From positions 1-51,888 of the forward strand of contig JAJQBC010000072.1 of the NCBI GenBank assembly GCA_021203465.1: 51,888 nt of DNA, in the 5' to 3' direction. A model generated the notes under the pieces. The model saw only the letters and a program-made list of their open reading frames with translations, did not search any database and was not told the origin of the DNA. The stretch's first letter is position 1. Each line of letters begins with the position of its first letter. This document shows, piece by piece, positions 33,316 through 37,365 of the stretch. The position numbers were made by a program, and so were the translations under genes. Source of the stretch: Lachnospiraceae bacterium (GTDB taxonomy: Bacteria; Bacillota; Clostridia; Lachnospirales; Lachnospiraceae).

Positions 33316-34401
33316 TCAGTAATCTAACGTCTCCATATATCTCATGTATTTCACGACCATCAACGCGATCTTGAACGTGATAGCATCCTCGAACACACGG
33401 ATATCCAGCCCGGTGGCCTTCTGGAGCTTATCCAGCCGGTACACAAGCGTATTCCTGTGAATGAAGAGCTGCCTTGAGGTCTCCGACACATTCAGGCTGT
33501 TCTCGAAGAATTTATTGATCGTCGTCAGCGTCTCCTCGTCAAAATCATCCGGCGACTTTCCCTCAAAGGTCTCCTTGATAAACATCTTGCAAAGCGGAAT
33601 CGGAAGCTGGTAGATCAATCGTCCGATGCCCAGAGAACTATAGGATACAATATCACGCTCCTCGAAGAAGATCTTGCCGACGTCAAGCGCCATCTTCGCT
33701 TCCTTATAAGAGCGGGACACCTCTTTGATCTCGCTCACAATCGTTCCAAGAGCCACACGGATCTCCTCGCCGTCCGTCGACGCCGCATCTTTCATCTCCT
33801 GCGCCGCAAGGAACATCTCCTCATAGCCCTCTCCGGAAGCCAGCTCACGAACCACGATCACGTTCTTCTCATCAACCGCCGTGACAAAGTCGTGGGACTT
33901 ACTCCCGTATAGGTTTCTCATATTTTCCAGAGCGACATTTACCTTCTCACGGCTACACTCGATCACAAACACCATGCGCCGCGCCTCCGCCGCAATATGC
34001 AGCTTCTTGGCACGATTGTAAATGTCCACCAGCAACAGGTTATCCAGAAGCAGATTTTTGATAAAATTATCTTTGTCAAAACGCTCCTTGTACGCAATCA
34101 GCAGGCCGGAGAGCTGGAACGACGCCATCTTTCCCACCATGTAGACATCATCGCTGCCGCCCTTTGCCAGCAGTATATATTCCAACTGATTTTCATCAAA
34201 AACCTTGAAAAACTGATATCCGTGGATCACCTGACTGTCCGCCGGCGACGCGGTGAAAGACTCCGCCTCTGCCCCCATATTCTCCGGCAGCTCCTCCGTG
34301 GAGGCCAGTATCTGCCCATCTATATCCAATACGCACAGATCAATCCGCGTAATTCCCTTCAGGCCGTCAATCGTATTTTGGATAATCTGGTTTGAAATCA
34401 T
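33316..34401 (-). CDS. PucR/CdaR-family transcriptional regulator
   Basis: This 361-residue protein has an N-terminal sugar-diacid-recognition-like domain (IDLCVLDIDGQILASTEEL), a central GGDEF-like but degenerate segment (RMVFVIECSREKVNVALENM) and a C-terminal PucR-type helix-turn-helix (NVSETSRQLFIHRNTLVYRL). CdaR-type regulators respond to organic acids such as glycerate or glucarate; the ligand here is unknown. It is the first gene before ftsE and its promoter region contains a 23-bp palindrome, so it may autoregulate and control the division genes downstream. The start at 34401 follows GGGAGGG. Confidence 0.9.
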   Translation of the reverse strand: MISNQIIQNTIDGLKGITRIDLCVLDIDGQILASTEELPENMGAEAESFTASPADSQVIHGYQFFKVFDENQLEYILLAKGGSDDVYMVGKMASFQLSGLLIAYKERFDKDNFIKNLLLDNLLLVDIYNRAKKLHIAAEARRMVFVIECSREKVNVALENMRNLYGSKSHDFVTAVDEKNVIVVRELASGEGYEEMFLAAQEMKDAASTDGEEIRVALGTIVSEIKEVSRSYKEAKMALDVGKIFFEERDIVSYSSLGIGRLIYQLPIPLCKMFIKETFEGKSPDDFDEETLTTINKFFENSLNVSETSRQLFIHRNTLVYRLDKLQKATGLDIRVFEDAITFKIALMVVKYMRYMETLDY

Positions 34402-34425
34402 GGTATTTCCCTCCCCTTATATATA

Positions 34426-34454
34426 AGTATAGTAAACGATCCGACACCGTTTAC
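34426..34454 (-). promoter_or_regulatory. -10 box and 23-bp palindrome ahead of the PucR-type regulator
   Basis: A -10 box TATACT on the minus strand (34426-34431) directly abuts a perfect palindrome GTAAACG-N9-CGTTTAC at 34432-34454. The palindrome fills the whole spacer and the -35 position; no good -35 match is seen. A symmetric site in this position suggests operator control, probably by the adjacent regulator or another dimeric repressor. Confidence 0.6.
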
Positions 34455-34603
34455 CCTCGCTCGTGAATCCATCTCGCTGAATTCCTACGTTATATATTAA
34501 AGCAAAACTTCCAAAAAGGAAAGAACTATTTTTATTTTATGCATGCCCCGCCGCTCCGCTTCATATAGTATAACCAAAGCATCATCAACAATAGGAGCCT
34601 GCC

Positions 34604-35047
34604 ATGAGCGCCAAAACCAAAATCTGGGTGTTCCACATGAAAGAGCTGATCTACACTGTAGTCTTCGTCGTGCTGGGCATTCTCTTTCTTCTGCTCCTGA
34701 TCTTTATGTTTTCATCAGGCCAAAAGGACACGAACACGGAACCGACTGCCGAATCCGGCGGGCGTTACACTGCCGGAGTCTATACTTCTTCGCTCACACT
34801 GGGTGGAAACACAGTGGAAATCGCTGTCACGGTGGACGAAGATTATATCTCCTCCATCAGCTTCCGACAGATCGATGAGACCGTCGCCGCCATGTATCCG
34901 CTCATGGAACCCGCGCTGGAATCTCTGGCCTCCCAGATCTGTGAAACGCAGTCTCTGGAAAATATCACCTGCTCCGAAGACAGCCAATACACCTCGCTCC
35001 TGCTCATGAGCGCCATAGAGGCCGCTCTGGAAAAAGCGAGGAACTAA
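34604..35047 (+). CDS. Single-span membrane protein, FMN-bind-like extracellular domain
   Basis: This 147-residue protein has one membrane segment at about 17-37 (IYTVVFVVLGILFLLLLIFMF). The extracellular part begins with a Thr/Glu-rich spacer and GRYTAGVYTSSLTLGGNTVEIAVTVDEDYISSI, the strand pattern seen in FMN-binding-domain proteins, but without the usual flavin-attachment motif. The C-terminal helix is amphipathic. GGAG precedes the start. It is transcribed away from the PucR-type regulator. Function unknown; a role in the envelope is inference. Confidence 0.72.
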   Translation: MSAKTKIWVFHMKELIYTVVFVVLGILFLLLLIFMFSSGQKDTNTEPTAESGGRYTAGVYTSSLTLGGNTVEIAVTVDEDYISSISFRQIDETVAAMYPLMEPALESLASQICETQSLENITCSEDSQYTSLLLMSAIEAALEKARN

Positions 35048-35051
35048 AAGC

Positions 35052-35075
35052 CTGCCGGGATCGCTCCCCCGGCAG
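35052..35075 (-). terminator. Terminator after the 51-residue gene
   Basis: On the minus strand CTGCCGGG and CCCGGCAG (35068-35075 with 35052-35059) form an 8-bp stem, followed after a few bases by TTTT (35047-35050). It lies three bases past the small gene stop. Confidence 0.7.
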
Positions 35076-35078
35076 CCC

Positions 35079-35234
35079 TCACTGTCTGAGATAAACGCCC
35101 TGCGACTCGATCCAGTCGTCCAATTCTGTCAAGCAGTCCTCATTCCAAGTCGGGCTCAGCTCCTTCTGCTTCTGCGCCCCGGATTTCTCCTCACAAACTG
35201 CCTCCTGCTCCCTTTTCTTTTCTTCCTGTGCCAT
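35079..35234 (-). CDS. 51-residue hypothetical protein
   Basis: A short frame starts ATG at 35234 with GGAGGG seven bases upstream (35242-35247) and ends TGA at 35079-35081. The product begins MAQEEKKREQEAVCEE and ends LTELDDWIESQGVYLRQ. It is a charged, Lys/Glu-rich N-terminus followed by an acidic C-terminal segment with two Trp. No membrane segment or known domain is seen. The good ribosome binding site and the close downstream terminator support a real gene. The transcript before it contains a 174-nt multi-hairpin element, so its expression may be controlled by RNA structure. Confidence 0.65.
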   Translation of the reverse strand: MAQEEKKREQEAVCEEKSGAQKQKELSPTWNEDCLTELDDWIESQGVYLRQ

Positions 35235-35260
35235 AACGTTTCCCTCCACTCGCCGGTTTG

Positions 35261-35434
35261 TAACTCTTCAGAACAGCAGGCCACAGACCGCCTTCTTCGA
35301 AGGCTATATGCCGCTTACGCGTCATATGTCTGAGGCTTGATGGGCGTTCCGCCCATCCCGAAATGAAAATACAGCCTTTAGCAGGTAAACCTGCACAGTC
35401 TGTTTTTTCATTTCGATGCTGTTCTGAACTGTTA
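35261..35434 (-). ncRNA. 174-nt multi-hairpin element ahead of the 51-residue gene
   Basis: An outer 18-bp inverted repeat with two mismatches closes the element (35261-35278 with 35417-35434). Inside are: a three-way junction closed by CAGAC/GTCTG with arms GCCTTC-TTC-GAAGGC (35290-35304) and a second hairpin at 35306-35328; GATGGGCG-TTC-CGCCCATC (35339-35357); and CGAAATGAAAA/TTTTCATTTCG (35359-35369 with 35405-35415), which encloses GCAGG-TAAA-CCTGC (35381-35394). It ends about 14 bases before the ribosome binding site of the 51-residue gene. It could be a cis-regulatory leader, a separate RNA or a MITE-like insertion with terminal inverted repeats. I know of no described class that it matches. 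Confidence 0.5.
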
Positions 35435-35445
35435 CTCAATTTTCC

Positions 35446-35484
35446 AAAAAGCCACCCCCAAAAGCTCTCAGCTTTGAGAGTGGC
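35446..35484 (-). terminator. Terminator of lspA
   Basis: On the minus strand GCCAC, CTCTCA-loop-TGAGAG and GTGGC are followed by TTTTT (35446-35450). The hairpin overlaps the last codons of lspA (stop at 35468-35470). Confidence 0.7.
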
Positions 35485-35938
35485 CTCCATTTCCTGCGCA
35501 TATCAGAACTGTCCCAATAAAAATGAAGAAGTCCGCCAAATTAAATACAAGTCGATTCAGGCATTTAAACGGAGTATGGAAGCGAATATAATCCACCACA
35601 TAACCCCGACGGCAACGGTCATACAGATTGGAAAGTGCCCCGCCTGTCAGGAACGCAGCCCCCACCGTTCGGACAAGCTGACCCGGCATTGTCAGCAGAC
35701 GGATAAACATTCCGACATCGCAGGCCGTCACGAGAGCGGTACCCTGCACGATCTCCGTCATATGGCCGACCCACCTGCTGCCTGCCAATCCGTAATTGTG
35801 CAAACGTTCAATATCCGCGAATCCGCCCGACAGCGGATATTCCCCACCGCCCTCCGAAAGCTCTTCGATCTCACGCTTCACCGCCTGATCAGCCTGAAAC
35901 AGGGCAAGCGCCATACCCGCAAAAAATATTTTTTTCAT
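35468..35938 (-). CDS. lspA: Signal peptidase II-like protein
   Basis: This 156-residue membrane protein has the two aspartate motifs of prolipoprotein signal peptidase: GGALSNLYDRCRRGYVVDYI and FNLADFFIFIG. DQAVK near residue 18 matches the conserved DQ-x-x-K of the first helix. The segment HNYGLAGSR replaces the common N-x-G-A-A-F-S motif, so it is a divergent member. LspA cleaves the signal peptide of lipoproteins after lipid attachment; this window encodes at least two candidates (the S41 protease and the DUF3048 protein). It starts two bases after the ClpX-like gene stop and is probably cotranscribed with it. Confidence 0.82.
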   Translation of the reverse strand: MKKIFFAGMALALFQADQAVKREIEELSEGGGEYPLSGGFADIERLHNYGLAGSRWVGHMTEIVQGTALVTACDVGMFIRLLTMPGQLVRTVGAAFLTGGALSNLYDRCRRGYVVDYIRFHTPFKCLNRLVFNLADFFIFIGTVLICAGNGGHSQS

Positions 35939-35940
35939 GA

Positions 35941-37365
35941 TTAACCCTGCATCTCCAGCGCCGGCACGCCGCGCAGCGTGATCAGCGGTCCGCCCCGGTG
36001 CTCGATATAATCGCCCGTAATCGTCACTTGACCGATATTATCATCCTTCGGGATCTCATACATAATATCCAACATGAATTCCTCGATAATCGCGCGCAAT
36101 GCCCTGGCGCCCGTGTCCTTCTCCATCGCTTTCCTCGCGATGGCGCTCAGCGCATCGTCCGTGAACTCCAGCTTTACCTCGTCCAGCGCCAGCAGCTTCT
36201 GATACTGCTTCAGTATCGCGTTCTTTGGCTCCTTCAGGATACGTACCATCATCTCCTCGTTCAGCGCGTCGAGTGTAAAGACAATCGGCAACCGCCCGAT
36301 AAATTCCGGAATCATCCCGAAATTTCTGAGATCCTCGACCGTCACGCGGCTGATGAGGTTCTTTTCCTTATCATATTTATCCTTCAGATCCGCACGAAAG
36401 CCGATCGACGACTGTTCGTTCAGCCGTTCCTTGATGATATCCTCCAAATCCGGGAACGCTCCGCCGCAGATGAACAGAATATTCTTTGTATTGATCGTCT
36501 CGAGCGGCACCATCGCGTTCTTGCTGTTCGCGCCGACCGGAACCTCGACCTCTGCCCCCTCGAGCAGCTTCAGAAGTCCCTGCTGTACCGACTCGCCGCT
36601 GACATCGCGCTGGGTCGTGTTTTTCTTTTTTGCCAGTTTATCGATCTCATCGATAAAGACGATCCCCTGCTCCGCCTTCTCCACATCGTTGTCCGCCGCG
36701 GCCAGAAGCTTCGAGAGCACACTCTCGATATCATCTCCTATATATCCAGCCTCCGTCAGAGAGGTGGCATCCGCGATTGCGAGCGGCACATCCAGAAGCC
36801 GGGCCAGAGTCTTCACAAGATAGGTCTTGCCGCAGCCCGTCGGCCCGATCATCAACATATTGGACTTCTCGATCTCGATACCATCCGCATCCGCACCGGC
36901 AGCCACACGCTTATAGTGATTGTATACCGCTACGGAGATCACCTTTTTGGCCTTCTCCTGTCCCACAACATACTCGTCCAGACTCGCCTTGATCCGATGT
37001 GGCGCGGGAATGGAACGAATATCCAGCTTCTTTTCCTGCTTCAGCTGTTCATTCTGCTCCGGCGCCTTCTTTTTCACACGCTGGCGGTGTGGGATCATAT
37101 TCTGCAGATCGGACAGATTAATCATGCTGATATTCGGCATCTTTGAAAAATCGATCTTGCTATAGTCCACGTTCCCATTATTCATCGTGTCCATAGCCTT
37201 CTGCATACACTCCGCGCAGATATGGATGTCCTTCGTCAGGTGGATCATCTTCCCTGTTTTACTCGCGGGACGGTGGCACATAAAGCAGACATCCTCATAC
37301 TCGTCCTCCTGCTTCTGTTGGTCAGCCTGATCCTTCAGTTCCGTATCTTTATCTTCAAAATCCAT
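35941..37365 (-). CDS. ClpX-like AAA+ ATPase
   Basis: This 474-residue protein has an N-terminal four-cysteine zinc-binding domain (C27, C30, C50, C53), then the ClpX AAA+ core with Walker A GPTGCGKT at 174-181, Walker B VFIDEID near 236-242 and a box VII arginine region. The IGF tripeptide in QSSIGFRAD is the loop that docks ClpX onto ClpP. It is longer than typical ClpX (about 420-430 residues) because of an extended acidic N-terminus and linker. No clpP, tig or lon is next to it; lspA follows, so it may be a second ClpX paralogue. GGAG precedes the start. Confidence 0.88.
   Translation of the reverse strand: MDFEDKDTELKDQADQQKQEDEYEDVCFMCHRPASKTGKMIHLTKDIHICAECMQKAMDTMNNGNVDYSKIDFSKMPNISMINLSDLQNMIPHRQRVKKKAPEQNEQLKQEKKLDIRSIPAPHRIKASLDEYVVGQEKAKKVISVAVYNHYKRVAAGADADGIEIEKSNMLMIGPTGCGKTYLVKTLARLLDVPLAIADATSLTEAGYIGDDIESVLSKLLAAADNDVEKAEQGIVFIDEIDKLAKKKNTTQRDVSGESVQQGLLKLLEGAEVEVPVGANSKNAMVPLETINTKNILFICGGAFPDLEDIIKERLNEQSSIGFRADLKDKYDKEKNLISRVTVEDLRNFGMIPEFIGRLPIVFTLDALNEEMMVRILKEPKNAILKQYQKLLALDEVKLEFTDDALSAIARKAMEKDTGARALRAIIEEFMLDIMYEIPKDDNIGQVTITGDYIEHRGGPLITLRGVPALEMQG

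Follow-up and report, generated by a model that had tools for sequence, protein, structure and literature searches.

A branched inverted-repeat element beside lspA in a Lachnospiraceae bacterium is very probably one copy of a MITE-like mobile family

Genes and features of the locus

The window analyzed here is a whole stretch of 51,888 nucleotides from Lachnospiraceae bacterium (assembly GCA_021203465.1, contig JAJQBC010000072.1). Between lspA and a gene encoding 51 amino acids, it carries a multi-branched inverted-repeat element of about 176 bp (35260-35435) with the ends GTAAC...GTTAC. The two genes flank the element as a preliminary description of this DNA had them, and both lie on the minus strand, so that a leader RNA here would be a minus-strand RNA. 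The features are:

35468..35938, minus strand: lspA (Peptidase_A8, PF01252), the upstream neighbor, outside the element
35260..35435, no strand assigned: the whole element, an inverted repeat with the ends GTAAC...GTTAC (boundaries from empty sites and the target-duplication register)
35260..35278, plus strand: left terminal inverted repeat, the 5' arm of the closing stem (inverted-repeat and end-motif searches)
35279..35337, no strand assigned: branch 1, a stem with an inner three-way junction from which the hairpins 35290-35304 and 35306-35327 arise (predicted fold and copy alignments)
35339..35357, no strand assigned: branch 2, a short hairpin, GATGGGCG-TTC-CGCCCATC (predicted fold and copy alignments)
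35359..35415, no strand assigned: branch 3, a long hairpin with internal loops and a TAAA end loop (predicted fold, inverted repeat and copy alignments)
35417..35435, minus strand: right terminal inverted repeat, the 3' arm of the closing stem (inverted-repeat and end-motif searches)
35079..35234, minus strand: conserved 51-amino acid gene after lspA, outside the element (kept in five relatives without the element)

The 51-amino acid protein had no match in a Pfam search, and its C-terminus (SPTWNEDCLTELDDWIESQGVYLRQ in the window) is nearly invariant across nine relatives of the genus, which marks it as a conserved small protein. Another ORF (35191-35490; 99 amino acids) crosses the element and is taken as a chance frame. 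Of the two terminators proposed earlier, the hairpins themselves are present: one at 35075-35052, behind the 51-amino acid ORF, is terminator-like, and one behind lspA (about 35446-35487), read by eye, is conserved in relatives. Their standing as terminators gains little from our terminator scan, which proves little, with two sites of this kind in 1.1 kb where 1.4 would be expected, and did not list the hairpin behind lspA.

Folding analysis bore out the multi-branched hairpin structure that had been drawn within 174 nt. The minimum free energy (MFE) of 35261-35434 is -85.8 kcal/mol on the plus strand (shuffled sequences: -40.8, sd 3.6; z = -12.7) and -89.5 kcal/mol on the minus strand (z = -11.0), and on either strand none of 200 shuffles folded as well. 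The closing repeat, given previously as 18 bp, consists of 19-nt paired arms (35260-35278 and 35417-35435) that are 89% complementary. In the predicted fold, the closing stem leads to an outer four-way junction with three arms, and the first of these arms contains an inner three-way junction. A search of the 3 kb at 34000-37000 with the Rfam covariance models gave no match at E <= 10.

The site beside lspA is empty in related genomes

Comparison with relatives showed an element-free site at this position in five genomes (G001, G008, G011, G012, and G014), where the left and right flanks meet (the relatives were aligned up to the junction). Against these empty sites, the window has an insertion of about 180 bp, with the lspA hairpin on one side and the 51-amino acid gene's ribosome binding site on the other. 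All five relatives keep this gene, at 76-84% identity and almost unchanged in the C-terminal half of its product, together with its GGAGG box. In two further genomes, G013 and G007, whose flanks are less similar, the matched parts are separated by 116 and 193 nt, where the window has 324 and 418 nt; by our reckoning, these intervals are too short for a full-length copy.

Copies are dispersed within the genome and the genus

The preliminary description had named many dispersed copies as a mark of a mobile element, and these we found: in its own genome (3.24 Mb, 158 contigs), the element gave 71 BLAST pieces at about 40 places, and the end motif TAACNNTTCAGAACAGC had 67 matches (up to two mismatches) against two for a reversed control. 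A covariance model built from 11 full-length copies returned 36 matches in the same genome, comprising 30 distinct places and six opposite-strand matches of the same copies. Copies adjoin unrelated genes, in either orientation. Of 18 further sites in this genome, 13 could be aligned through the junction with one or more of five relatives, in some cases with missing or additional bases.

Under stricter filters, which may miss weak copies, the covariance model matched 7 of the 17 genus genomes searched (the own genome included) and, weakly (E 0.003 to 1e-8), 3 of 20 genomes of other genera of the family; none of 24 genomes of other families in the order gave a match. The remote copies in other genera still have a closing stem and branching arms, but most of their letters differ. 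An exact 35-base pattern was present in 44 contigs of named genomes, all titled as Lachnospiraceae or Clostridiales MAGs; the phage and plasmid records searched, and IMG/VR searched with one exact pattern, gave no match. Near a contig end of a genome from another genus (G018; L143, 1-463), three related hairpin units lie head to tail, forming either an array or a nested insertion.

Shared ends, target duplication, and insertion sites

Many copies share terminal inverted repeats, with ends of the form GTAAC(N2)TTCAGAACAGC; intact right ends commonly read GTTAC. The terminal boxes of integron attC sites are RYYYAAC and GTTRRRY. Right ends of the GTTAC form do not fit them, and an attC site was rejected as an identity for the element.

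Target duplication was analyzed at 58 sites, which remained from 67 model matches and 11 short copies once orthologous and contig-edge sites had been removed. The signal was best at a length of 8-9 bp with the element starting at G: in the GTAAC...GTTAC register, the left and right 8-mers had a mean identity of 0.39 against 0.30 when permuted (z = 5.1), the best of the 120 combinations of length and offset reaching z = 5.2. Only seven of the 58 sites have at least six of eight bases matching in this register, and most show no duplication; in the window copy four of eight bases agree, which is not a clean duplication. Clear cases are L094 (GAAAATTA, eight of eight), L126 and L014 (one site in two genomes; TTCGCAAAT), L095 (AGAAATG, present singly in three genomes without the element), and L119. 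Copies with weak duplications may have lost theirs, or a second route of insertion may exist.

Counts of gene context, intact ends, strand balance, and MFE folds are based on the first 67 of 139 covariance-model matches (above about 99 bits); the rest are opposite-strand, partial, or weak. For gene context, 51 sites were kept, 49 of them with both neighbors, and genes were called with a home-made codon-model caller, which replaced a longest-ORF version whose choice among overlapping frames looked unreliable. Stop codons facing the element lay within 8 nt of it in 24 of 48 cases and start codons in 0 of 50. Selection against insertion into ribosome binding sites may underlie this asymmetry, as may a preference for certain targets or the TAA within the element's ends. 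Most sites (38 of 49) lie between co-directional genes, where the orientation of the element shows no clear preference (21 versus 17).

Erosion and extra modules

Copies with both ends recognised measure 36-227 nt, which is too short for a transposase gene; the longest listed end pair (260 nt, at L033) was taken as a chance partner and left out of this range. At 4 of the 11 short sites queried, a relative carries a full-length orthologue in the same place: L033 corresponds to full-length copies in G011 and G012, L034 and L039 to copies in G008, and L026 to one in G011. Read by eye, the breakpoints of three of these four eroded copies fall at direct repeats of 4-6 nt, and the short copy at L039 also holds other sequence. 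Copies shrink by internal deletion.

The 227-nt copies bear an extra hairpin module, which is found at two or more positions within the element and has matches at eight places of the own genome (E <= 1, the weakest ones short). In L012, L016, and L024, all in the own genome, a module of about 55 nt lies inside the copies at differing positions, as if a second small repeat had inserted into the first. At the site where L016 (2946-3172) holds a 227-nt copy, two relatives (L161 and L170) have only a sequence resembling the right end, which provides the stop codon of the upstream gene; this state is either a nearly complete deletion or a target that resembles the element's end.

The branched fold is maintained

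Pairing was analyzed in 37 hand-chosen full-length copies aligned by sequence, among which related copies are counted many times. In this set, 97.8% of 1850 cells pair, against 30-46% for slid structures, and 20 of 50 pairs are changed on both sides, which none of 500 shuffles equaled; since the structure was derived from the same alignment, both controls flatter it. Doubly changed cells number 106 (shuffled mean 30.7; 0 of 500), whereas 13 cells carry one-sided standard changes and about 41 are unpaired. The count of further pair types did not exceed that of the shuffles (36 versus 34.9; 186 of 500). An earlier fold from 11 copies had largely the same helices, with 17 of 60 pairs doubly changed, and the TAAA end loop is invariant across all 37 rows and never inverted. 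The fold is maintained. Covarying stems had been proposed as a mark of a regulatory RNA, and they are present here in dispersed copies rather than orthologues, so that covariation did not by itself separate a leader from a MITE.

Wobble pairs are rare on both strands. Among the 37 copies, 14 of 1850 cells are G-U on the plus strand (0.8%) and 24 are A-C, which is G-U on the minus strand. In MFE folds, the G-U share is 2.6% (plus) and 3.8% (minus), compared with 11.5% in 19 tRNAs and 6.2% in the antisense of the same tRNA loci. Of 67 copies, 59 have a more stable fold on the minus strand than on the plus strand. The balance of wobbles over the 67 copies depends on a single column pair, 20/214, which reads G-T in 57 of them, a wobble on the plus strand and a mismatch on the minus: with this pair set aside there are 91 A.C cells (G.U on the minus strand) and 48 G.U cells, and with it included 92 (minus) and 105 (plus). 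The strand test is ambiguous. The rarity of G-U pairs and the near-perfect Watson-Crick arms point to upkeep of the fold at the DNA level, which we consider most likely; a need for the folded strand in movement, or template switching from arm to arm, would fit such upkeep. The greater stability of the minus strand in most copies speaks against it, and a transcript of that strand may have a role.

Search for a mobilizing partner

No transposase for the element was found by IS66-family profile, solo ends, or end pairs in the draft assemblies searched. None of the nine solo ends examined in the own genome had a good partner at the distance expected of a transposon, and most of them look like broken copies; among the matches listed for six relatives, no two ends 0.8-5 kb apart made a convincing pair. 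End-like motifs facing each other 0.8-0.9 kb apart occur at G011:C129:25760-26589 and G012:C4:6878-7774; one end sequence, which may be part of a conserved gene, is shared by these pairs and is also present in G000 and G014.

Descent from an IS66-family element is improbable in our judgment. Two IS66-type elements of the same genus, L212 (in G010) and L214 (in G002), have perfect 8-bp duplications and ends that begin with GTAA, as the element's do, but these ends (GTAAGCGTCAAATAAG) are otherwise unlike the element's GTAACNNTTCAGAACAGC, and the genomes of L212 and L214 have no match to the element. IS66 ends start with GTAAGCG, as far as the description we draw on goes (PMC11946415), and only GTAA and the 8 bp agree with the GTAAC ends found here. 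In genomes that do carry the element, the IS66 loci (L213, L216, and L217) showed no convincing ends, and the IS66 profile had no match in the draft genomes of the carriers G011, G012, G013, and G014.

Discussion

Dispersed copies, empty sites, shared ends, and a statistical target duplication together indicate a MITE-like insertion, and the stretch beside lspA is very probably one copy, of about 176 bp, of such a mobile element, which occurs in a group of uncultured gut bacteria. The suggestion that the closing repeat could be the ends of a MITE-like insertion is thus supported by the dispersal, the empty sites, and the duplication statistics. Against this reading stand the lack of an autonomous partner in our searches and of a clean duplication in the window copy; moreover, 20 doubly changed pairs and an invariant loop exceed what a simply decaying MITE should show.

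In the model we propose, a transposase supplied in trans would recognize the element by its GTAAC...TTCAGAACAGC ends and place it in intergenic regions, duplicating 8 bp of the target. The strands of the element can form near-perfect hairpins in a branched arrangement. Inserted copies then erode by internal deletions, which seem to occur between short direct repeats, until hairpins of 36-90 nt formed from the ends remain. At lspA, the element inserted into the stretch that separates the lspA hairpin from the following gene's ribosome binding site, and any effect there is probably a by-product.

The position between lspA and the 51-amino acid gene, the very stable fold, and the covariation among copies are what led to the proposal of a cis-regulatory, riboswitch-like leader. 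This proposal is largely refuted by the empty sites: five relatives keep the gene while lacking the element, which is therefore not a conserved leader, and its copies lie dispersed beside other, unrelated genes, with few G-U pairs and no Rfam match up to E 10. We regard a leader as very improbable. An element that spreads by mobility while selection keeps its minus-strand transcript, as an mRNA stabilizer, a processing site, or an operon insulator, would account for the greater stability of that strand in most copies, the excess of A.C over G.U cells with one pair set aside, the frequency of sites between co-directional genes, and the invariant TAAA loop. That excess is lost when columns 20/214 are counted in and is small in the 37-copy set (24 versus 14 cells), G-U pairs are less frequent on either strand than they are in tRNAs, and orientation is not clearly biased with respect to transcription; such a dispersed structured RNA seems unlikely to us.

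The pairing might instead be kept by mutation, not selection, if, during replication, template switching within a hairpin rewrites one arm from the other, a homogenization that has been described, in the accounts we draw on (PMC8794818; PMC8604942). The predominance of doubly changed over one-sided cells points this way, although related copies repeat the same change, as do a change from U-A to G-C at columns 35/43 with the intermediate absent and the scarcity of G-U intermediates on either strand. Such copying sits less easily with a TAAA loop that is the same in 37 rows and never inverted, and with branched folds retained in distant copies of other genera; we consider it possible, if somewhat doubtful. 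Rather less probable, and put forward tentatively, is a class of mobile element selected for the folded single strand of its whole interior. If this were true, transposition or replication-coupled copying would recognize a branched DNA fold and not only the ends, and architecture and loops would persist across genera while most stem letters turn over.

By the features tested, and apart from the missing parent element, the family belongs to the MITEs. As prokaryotic MITEs are described in the part of PMC10969869 used here, they are likewise short and intergenic, with terminal inverted repeats, target duplication, and a strongly folding transcript; the element differs in a branched interior fold kept by paired changes and in that no parent insertion sequence was found. 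The closest described sets known to us are the BOX, RUP, and SPRITE repeats and the bcr repeats. BOX, RUP, and SPRITE of Streptococcus pneumoniae share with the element the structured intergenic form, modular length, and insertion into one another, whereas, set against the portion of their description drawn on (PMC3049150), the element has short versions that at four sites are internally deleted full-length copies. The repeats bcr1-bcr18 of the Bacillus cereus group are similar in length (100-400 bp) and in the tens of bcr1 copies per genome; in the excerpts considered, bcr1-3 are called MITE-like, some other bcr repeats have a conserved fold, and bcr is linked to a TTTAT motif, in contrast to the 8-bp duplication and GTAAC ends of the element (PMC6542083; PMC3446304). 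The eroded short copies look like solitary palindromes of the REP type (GTAG/CGTC), to the extent that PMC3733652 was drawn upon, except that some short palindromes of the element derive from longer insertions. We describe a new family of a known kind, set apart from BOX/RUP/SPRITE and bcr by their descriptions; the open-licence literature on such repeats in Lachnospiraceae yielded no description, though an earlier one is possible.

As the family shows, an intergenic fold can be multi-branched, covarying, and very stable and yet be a mobile repeat and not a riboswitch, which makes it a trap for searches for structured RNAs. It also provides, at orthologous sites, a natural series from full-length insertion to short hairpin. 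Together with the similar architecture across genera, this eroded series makes the choice between selection, transposition, and arm-to-arm copying directly testable.
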